In this document: piece by piece, positions 43,301-46,300 of the stretch | Position numbering within the stretch: the first letter of the stretch is position 1 | Layout of the letters: every line of letters begins with the position of its first letter | Assembly: GCF_964340395.1 (NCBI RefSeq) | Contig: NC_135566.1 | Span: 21,474,635-21,538,634 of the forward strand | Direction of reading: 5' to 3' | DNA: 64,000 bases | Origin: Glandiceps talaboti | Lineage: Eukaryota > Hemichordata > Enteropneusta > Spengelidae | The notes under the pieces: generated by a model | The model's input: the letters and a program-made list of their open reading frames with translations, nothing else | The model's database searches: none | Told to the model about the DNA's origin: nothing | Program-made: the position numbers and the translations under genes

Positions 43301-46300
43301 ATACACAAAAACCAATGATCATTTAGATAATAAATAAATATTGTTCACATGTAATGTAATACAAGCATATTCTCTCTCTCTCTCTCTCTCTCTCTCTCTC
43401 TCTCTCTCTCTCTCTCTCTCTCTCTCTCTCTCTCTCTCTCTCTCTCTCTCTCTCTCTCTCTCTCTCTCTCTCTCTCTCTCTCTCTCTCTCTCTCTCTCTC
43501 TCTCTCTCTCTCTCTCTCTCTCTCTCTCTCTCTCTCTCTCTCTCATAAGCATGACTTTACTTCACTCTGCTGTTTCCAAATGAACATGCTTTTGACACTA
43601 ATTTTCAAAGTAGACACAGCACACAGGACGCGTCACTAGTCAACATTAGTGATGCGTCTTTACACTGATTGCGATAGGAATATATCCTTATTTTGAATAG
43701 AAAAAATCGACTCTCAGTACACGTCGGACATCTGAACATACAATCAGACAACAAACCGCATTTTGCACAACATATCCATCACACACTGCAGATGATTTAC
43801 TATAAACTTACCTTCTAGTAGTCAAGAAACATCCATTTACAAAGCAATATGTCTGTATTCTGTTGTTCTGCTTTAAATCATAGCCAAATCAAGTAAATTG
43901 ATGAGGAACCCCTGAAACTTGCATAGACTAAACTAGCCTTAAAAGCACTGACTGGATTATTTATTATACATATTTGTCATGTTATATTATTGTTTCACAA
44001 TTTATCGTCATCATTCATGTCACCGTCATACGTGATTTTCAGGTCGATTTGATAGTGGGGTTGTACTTCCATGATAGTACAAAGTTGCACTTATAATGAG
44101 GTCAGTATTTGCATATGAACAATGGACACATTCAAAGAGTTACGTTAGCCTTTTGTGTTGCGCCTCTTCTTTCGCCAGCACTCAATTAATGAGGTTGATA
44201 TTTGCATATGAACAATGGACAATTTTTAAGCTTAGCGTTAGTCACTAGAACACTTTGTGTTGCGCCACTGCTATTGTGAACGTGCGTTAACCCGGCGCTA
44301 GCTAATCGGAAACTTGCGTTAGAGCTGTACTGTAGATGTTGTAGAGAGTCTATGGGTCTTAGGTTTGTACATAGATATTGGATAGAGTTTATGAGTCTTA
44401 GGTTTGGACATAGATGTTGGATAGAGTTTATGGGTCTTAGGTTTGGACATAGATGTTGTAGAGAGTCTATGGGTCTTAGGTTTGGACATAGAAGTTGGAG
44501 AGAGTCTATGAGTTTGGATCATATTCACACAATGTACACACTTCAGGAAAGAATCCCACTAGGTCCTCTGTCACTGCTTCCAACAATCCTTACAGTAATA
44601 AAAAGATTCTCTTGGTTCAGAAAAGTACAATTAGTGACACTGACTGGTCAAGAGAGGACTTGGAGGAAGTGTTACCATGGTAACTTACTTGAAATAGGGA
44701 TTTCAGCAATAAGAAGATCTTCTTGTGAGGATGCCATACCAGCTATGGTTTTGAATTCATCTTGTTTTTCACCGTAGGCATAACTTTCATCAAATTTCAC
44801 CAAAACTGCTTTGTGTTTGGAAATGACCTGAAAGTGGAACACCATGTTAACTTACTTGAAATACCAACTTCAGCAATTACAAGATCTTCCTCAGTAGAAG
44901 CCATTTTGGCTAAAGATTTAAATTCATCCTGTTTTTCCCCATAAGGATATTTTTCATCTATTTTGACCATAACAGCTTTATGTTTTGGAATAATCTGGAA
45001 GTGGAAGAATACGATTCCATTTATTCTGTAAACTTTAACAATGAGTTGTACACCAAGACTATCGATACTTTTACTTCAACATTTTTACTTTCTCTTTTAC
45101 TTTTAATATTATATGAAAAATTCTTCCACAGCATGACACAAGACAGCACAACACTGTTACAGAGCACAAATTTCAGGCCACAAGATGCACACAACAGTAC
45201 AAATGTGCAAATTAAGCAAACTAACATGCAAAGACTTGAATAAAATAAGACTATCTGAACCAAGATTGATCAGGCAACGAGTTCTTGAAGATTAATTGAT
45301 GACATTGGTAACAGTTACAACAGCTCTTTCCTTCCAAAGCTAAAACCTTTCAATGTTTACTTCATTTTTTTTTTAAATGACTCTATTGAACAAATATTCC
45401 TTTAACTGAATGGGTTCAATAAAACATTAGCTATCTAAATGCATGACTGTTTTGTGTATTAATTTACTGCAGCAGTAGATAGAGAAACATATACATTGTG
45501 TAGTAATTTACTGCAGCAGTAGACATATAGAGAACGATATACATTGTGGAGTAATTTACTGCAGCAGTAGTAGACATATAGAGAACCATACATGTATACA
45601 TTGTGTAGTAATTTACTGCAGAAGTAGACATATAGAGAACCATATACATTGTGTAGTAATTTACTGCAGCAGTAGACATATAGAGAACCATATACATTGT
45701 GGAGTAATTTACTGCAGCAGTAGACATATAGAGAACGATATACATTGTGTAGTAATTTACTGCAGCAGTAGTAGACATATAGAGAACCATACATTGTGGA
45801 GTAATTTACTGCAGCAGTAGTAGACATATAGAGAACCATATACATTGTGGAGTAATTTACTGCAGCAGTAGACATATAGAGAACCACATACATTGTGTAG
45901 TAATTTACTGCAGCAGTAGACATATTGAGAACCATATACATTGTGGAGTAGTTTACTGCAGCAGTAGACATATAGAGAACCATATACATTGTGGAGTAAT
46001 TTACTGCAGCAGTAGACATATAGAGAACCACATACATTGTGGAGTAGTTTACTGCAGAAGTAGATATATAGAGAACTATATACATTGGGTAGTAGTTTAC
46101 TGCAGCAGTAAACATATAGAGAAACATATACAGTACAGAACAGTTCATATGTATTGTTATCCATACAAAACTAAACCCTTGTATTAGAGAGTCTATTTTA
46201 TCATTTATTTTTGTCAAATTGTACATAAGTTTTTAGACTGGTGCCACCATCATCCTGCCCTATTAGGTAGCACGATTCCATTTACTACAAAATGGAAATA

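Follow-up and report, generated by a model that had tools for sequence, protein, structure and literature searches.

Two tandem, probably mutually exclusive versions of exon 2 in the ERp29 gene of the hemichordate Glandiceps talaboti

We studied a stretch of 64,000 nucleotides from the genome of Glandiceps talaboti (contig NC_135566.1, positions 21,474,635 to 21,538,634; hereafter the window), in which the gene for the endoplasmic reticulum protein ERp29 carries two versions of its second exon, here named 2a and 2b, with a very short intron between them. The question raised by this locus is whether the two versions are alternatives, such that a transcript would contain one or the other and never both, or whether one of them contributes nothing to the protein. 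Judging from the DNA, we hold it to be highly probable that 2a and 2b are a duplication-born, sterically exclusive pair giving two forms of ERp29, and the evidence for this reading is set out below together with that bearing on its rivals.

One complete ERp29 gene is present on the minus strand of the window (Table 1). The original prediction had named the gene ERP29 and placed the paired exons at 44689..44994; the identity held, the coordinates proved exact to the base, and the complete gene was recovered with exons 1 and 3. Exon 3 matched the Pfam ERp29 domain (E 3.7e-23) and, by tblastn, the human ERp29 sequence (E 7.9e-27), and its acceptor reads TTGTTACAG/AG (here and below a slash marks the splice junction); exon 1 gave a weak tblastn match (E 1.6) to residues 33-49 of the same sequence. 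Exons 2a and 2b each scored above the Pfam ERp29_N cut-off (E 7.8e-13 and 5e-11, respectively) and each matched PDB ERp29 chains. The spliced 2a form matched ERp29_N with E 7e-37 and the ERp29 C-terminal domain with E 1.6e-22, the spliced 2b form with E 4.2e-35 and 8.1e-23. The product is thus the same two-domain protein of the endoplasmic reticulum as human ERp29 and Drosophila Windbeutel (the 2a form matched PDB entry 2qc7, human ERp29, with E 1.8e-48 and 1ovn with E 2.9e-32); a duplicated exon 2 is not known from human ERp29 or from Windbeutel. Both predicted proteins have an NKDEL tail and lack CxxC, whose place is taken by YPYGEK or YAYGEK, and the N-terminus encoded by exon 1 is a putative signal peptide (judged by eye) followed by 16 further residues. 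In the alignment, the residues numbered D42, Y64, Q70, C157 and R223 in the human protein are all present (see below).

Table 1 Features of the ERp29 gene, with positions counted from the first nucleotide of the window
Feature	Positions	Strand	Remarks
Exon 1, coding part, 117 nt, 39 residues	48801..48917	-	ATG open through to donor AAG/GTAAGC
Intron 1, 3,806 nt	44995..48800	-	separates exon 1 from exon 2a
Exon 2a, 139 nt, 46 residues plus one base	44856..44994	-	Pfam ERp29_N, PDB ERp29 chains
28-nt GT...AG intron separating 2a and 2b	44828..44855	-	sequence GTAAGTTAACATGGTGTTCCACTTTCAG
Exon 2b, 139 nt, 46 residues plus one base	44689..44827	-	Pfam ERp29_N, PDB ERp29 chains
Intron 2, 16,386 nt, packed with minisatellites and segmental repeats	28303..44688	-	
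Exon 3, coding part, 500 nt: remaining thioredoxin-like domain, D-domain, KDEL, stop	27803..28302	-	
TTAAC, predicted branch point of exon 2b	44846..44850	-	strict yUnAy; A at 44847
Tandem duplication, two copies of ~167 nt without indels, both exons and near flanks	44674..45006	-	

A search of the 590-Mb assembly (47 contigs) with the ERp29_N profile (PF07912) at E values up to 1 returned three matches, all of them within the ERp29 gene described here (exons 2a, 2b and 3); profile PF07749 found exon 3 plus two weak matches under its cut-off, and a DNA search placed the exon-2 block at one site in the genome. As ERp29_N matched nowhere else, the searches gave no further ERp29 locus from which the other form might come, and with regard to an mRNA-derived retrocopy the same PF07912 search (E up to 1) gave the exons of this gene only. 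That the pair is an assembly error, or the product of merged haplotypes, has next to no probability: the window is repeat-rich and does contain near-identical segmental duplicates, but the two copies differ at 27% of their bases without a single indel over 167 nt, which is far beyond read error or haplotype difference, and the stretch occurs at that one site.

The repeats of the window deserve a brief description of their own. Intron 2 contains two pairs of segmental duplications, each 99.6% identical (38407-39525 with 40233-41348, and 39524-40233 with 42646-43357), which are far younger than the exon duplication. On the opposite strand of the same intron (37587-38501, plus strand) there is a 305-codon open frame with a BEN-domain match below the Pfam cut-off (E 0.0065) and a Pro/Gln-rich repeat (38000-38140), and a retroelement reverse transcriptase (RVT_1, E 2.7e-31) is located at 60840-62258 on the plus strand. 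Minisatellites with units of 28 to 60 nt and long dinucleotide runs are found across the window (46 entries), several of them in the ERp29 introns (examples of the minisatellites are 32073-34024, 34433-36365, 46529-47807 and 53931-55403), and scans of the 64-kb window for Rfam families and tRNAs gave no match. Elsewhere in the assembly, the mitochondrial contig (C40) has three COX1 matches 15,435 nt apart, i.e., that genome was assembled as tandem units. Its COX1 frame contains internal TGA 15 times and ATA at expected Ile sites (as read from the COX1 protein), and no AAA codon occurs in COX1 or in the putative ND2 and COX2 frames. ATA coding for Ile is common to echinoderms and hemichordates, and AAA codes for Asn in echinoderms and for Lys in Saccoglossus and is absent in Balanoglossus carnosus (PMC2697986). 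The mitochondrial code of this assembly thus indicates an enteropneust hemichordate close to Balanoglossus.

Returning to the exon pair, a recount agreed with what had been described, two exons of 139 nt in the same phase, with 32 of 46 residues identical and a gap of 28 nt; entry and exit frames are equal, and 102 of the 139 nucleotides are shared. Good splice sites had been assigned to each copy as well. The donors are indeed strong and matching (both CAA/GTAAGT, within the top 0.64% of the 4,821 GT sites of that strand when ranked with a donor matrix), and the acceptors are usable, that of 2b being the weaker, with pyrimidines at 11 of 17 positions as against 14 of 17 in 2a, so that exon 2a may be the default choice. 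Each copy is identical to the human sequence at 29 of 46 residues, and at the 14 residues in which the copies differ the human residue is found in 2a at five, in 2b at five and in neither at four; given this equal closeness, neither copy looks like an original beside its decayed double. The copies are closer to each other (70% identity) than 2a is to the human protein (63%), which suggests that exon 2 was probably duplicated after the split from the vertebrate line.

The reading frame is consistent with the use of one copy at a time. Among the exon combinations tested, 1-2a-3 and 1-2b-3 are the only open ones, each of 251 residues and ending in KDEL. Early stops arise otherwise, at codon 55 if both copies are skipped, at codon 98 if both are joined and at codon 105 if the 28 nt are retained; the stop at codon 98 agrees with the earlier expectation that including both exons would break the frame.

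Both diverged copies are under purifying selection. The divergence between 2a and 2b was dN 0.188 and dS 1.60 by NG86 and dN 0.179 and dS 1.64 by LWL85, i.e., dN/dS of about 0.11 to 0.12, and ML gave dN 0.179 with a saturated dS of 6.45; the differences fall on codon positions 1, 2 and 3 in the proportion 13/3/21 (p 0.0014). In a neutral simulation, 37 neutral differences were added to either starting copy in 20,000 runs each, and none of the runs from either copy reached 32 identical residues, the maxima being 30 and 31. About 19% of the neutral runs were free of stops, so that an open frame alone proves little, and one copy could by this measure be the dead remnant of an old duplication that stayed open by chance. 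The residues kept, the low dN beside a high dS and the complete set of splice sites preserved in both copies all speak against such a remnant, which we regard as exceedingly improbable. A more elaborate alternative is that one copy alone makes protein, the other serving as a decoy or poison element and reducing the output of ERp29, either by sequestering splicing factors or by yielding stop-bearing transcripts. The early stops produced by joining or retention, as well as the weaker 2b acceptor, would suit this arrangement, but a decoy requires splice sites and not a frame, whereas both copies have kept theirs at the low dN/dS given above; moreover, both are equally near to the human sequence, and neutral drift of one copy fails to reproduce their identity. 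We consider a decoy unlikely. The intron flanks of the copies are more conserved than the fourfold sites that they share (p 0.0045, or 0.03 when the core splice letters are excluded), in a small sample with only 10 such sites, of which 4 are alike and 6 differ; gene conversion could be a cause of these better-kept flanks.

We then considered whether 2a could be spliced to 2b across the intervening intron. A minimum donor-branch distance of about 50 nt has been published, and on an E1A pre-mRNA a distance of 35 nt abolished assembly (PMC6692369); the steric class of mutually exclusive exons is that with a donor-branch distance below 50 bp (PMC5740500). The whole intervening intron, at 28 nt, is shorter than this limit, which derives from human rather than hemichordate work. 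Being so far under the donor-branch minimum, 2a should not be joinable to 2b, and the original argument that the intron is too short for 2a-2b splicing is thereby supported against the published value. An unusual removal of the 28-nt intron, joining both exons in a regulated or productive transcript, can be imagined since the GT...AG ends are present and introns of about 25 bp are spliced in some ciliates (PMC5014332). Apart from the donor-branch minimum, this is opposed by the stop at codon 98 of the joined message and by the myosin genes of this genome, in which 30 profile-adjacent gaps from 78 myosin-head matches were all at least 268 nt, in a sample biased against short introns because very short ones would fuse into one match; one of the 30 gaps (966 nt) has a further match inside it, so that the two matches flanking it are no true neighbours. 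Joining of both exons therefore ranks, in our estimate, as very unlikely.

The sequence of the intron suggests how exclusion could operate. The 28 nt contain a single strict yUnAy match, TTAAC, which occupies intron positions 6-10 and has its A at intron base 9, 20 nt upstream of exon 2b; the region 10-120 nt upstream of exon 2b has this match and one other, CTTAT, located in exon 2a, 115 nt away, and looser branch-point candidates also occur within exon 2a. At the equivalent place past exon 2b stands TTACC, and no yUnAy match is found there. TTAAC is most likely the branch point of exon 2b and, as it starts on base +6 of the 2a donor, use of the donor and use of the branch site would in that case be directly exclusive.

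The same intron seems to bear the mark of its origin. The first 14 nt past exon 2b followed by the last 14 nt ahead of exon 2a reproduce it at 25 of 28 positions, a match equalled by none of 20,000 random 28-mers (positions 28,400-44,000 of the window, any break point), and the repeat unit measures 167 nt with 0% indels. On the simplest reading, the 28-nt intron would be the duplication junction itself, in which case the pair would have been exclusive from birth and the intron length would be unchanged. Directly after the 2b donor, at 44671-44684 (minus strand), GTTACCATGGTAAC is a perfect 14-nt palindrome, which results in partial complementarity between the two donor flanks. The pairing of these flanks (-14.8 kcal/mol) was equalled by 102 of 3,000 random pairs, with only two donor flanks tried; it formed when 199 nt were folded, was absent from a 411-nt fold, and is not used here as evidence.

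We propose the following course of events. Exon 2 would have been copied by a tandem duplication some 167 nt long that also took in about 14 nt of intron at either end, and the resulting intron of 28 nt would be unable to hold the donor complex and the branch-point complex together. U1/U6 on the 2a donor and U2 on the 2b branch point would compete for the same few bases, and the spliceosome would join exon 1 to one of the two copies and then the chosen copy to exon 3, both exons being used in mRNA in this way; double inclusion, double skipping or retention would shift the frame and lead to an early stop. Differences between the resulting proteins would be confined to 46 residues within the thioredoxin-like domain, which binds clients, with the D-domain and KDEL constant, and the likely effect would be an altered choice of the clients that ERp29 binds and escorts. 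Mutually exclusive splicing, as the original prediction had it, thus finds support in the frames, the early stops, the selection on both copies, the short intron and the single ERp29_N locus. A bolder version can be formulated, in which an old client-specificity switch is conserved in hemichordates, exclusive from birth, with donor and branch site fused in the ten-base GTAAGTTAAC, one RNA site choosing between chaperones that share the calnexin/calreticulin dock; we offer it tentatively, and are inclined to doubt it.

In the fold of the thioredoxin-like domain, the switched 46 residues correspond to a single beta-alpha-beta unit. Both forms keep the residues that are Y64 and Q70 in the human protein, residue 65 is P in 2a and A in 2b, and 13 more residues differ, including 63, 78, 83 and 92. 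The segment had been said to include the position where PDI proteins carry CxxC and part of the N-terminal domain used for dimerisation. The former stands, in that residue 65 presumably corresponds to the leading Cys of the CxxC found in active PDIs; the dimerisation argument is weakened, because D42, reportedly the residue tested for dimerisation, is encoded by the constant exon 1, outside the switched one. The two isoforms may have different surfaces, as had been proposed. Mutation of the retained Y64 and Q70 lowers thyroglobulin secretion (PMC7506106). The constant exon 3 has C157 and R223 at conserved positions of the alignment. Published work places the calnexin/calreticulin contact at R223 and the client site in the thioredoxin-like domain, and describes a D-domain that can be swapped (PMC7687155). 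With the switched piece in the client-binding domain and the D-domain constant, exon choice would most likely alter client binding, the calnexin/calreticulin dock being retained.

Several known systems can be compared with this pair. In alpha-tropomyosin a distant branch point lies far upstream of its exon, and ERp29 differs in that the entire intron is too short. The likeness is that a short donor-branch distance causes exclusion (PMC6692369). OGDH exons 4a and 4b are likewise duplicated, and the branch points of the downstream exon sit nearer to the upstream donor than the steric limit, so that the length of the intron is restricted, but their intron measures 118-131 nt in birds and mammals and the human branch points, experimentally mapped, lie 25-41 nt from the donor (PMC7969005); in ERp29, in contrast, the whole intron has 28 nt and the branch A is predicted at base 9. 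The human catalogue of mutually exclusive exons holds 57 clusters (9%) with a donor-branch distance below 50 bp, and ERP29 occurs 0 times in its main text; its clusters were validated by splice-junction reads (PMC5740500), whereas the ERp29 pair is predicted from DNA. Competing partners in docking/selector RNA structures of the Dscam type can also arise from tandem exon duplication (PMC6071210), but ERp29 shows modest donor-flank pairing only, which would not be needed given the 28-nt gap. In the literature covered (ERp29 splicing, exon duplication, PDI/thioredoxin proteins and invertebrate ERp29, in main texts that included few subscription papers) no description of a mutually exclusive or duplicated exon in ERp29 was found, in agreement with the earlier statement that none was known. 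The class of mechanism is already known from OGDH 4a/4b and alpha-tropomyosin; the novelty, as far as that literature reaches, is the occurrence of such a pair in ERp29. Nor did we meet an intervening intron as short among the few systems considered here.

The choice of clients by ERp29 is poorly understood. An exchange of 46 residues by splicing, with the remaining protein fixed, has the appearance of a natural experiment in client specificity. The pair would further serve as a minimal model for mutual exclusion of the steric type, because its 28-nt intron looks like a duplication junction and shows no trace of later growth or shrinkage.
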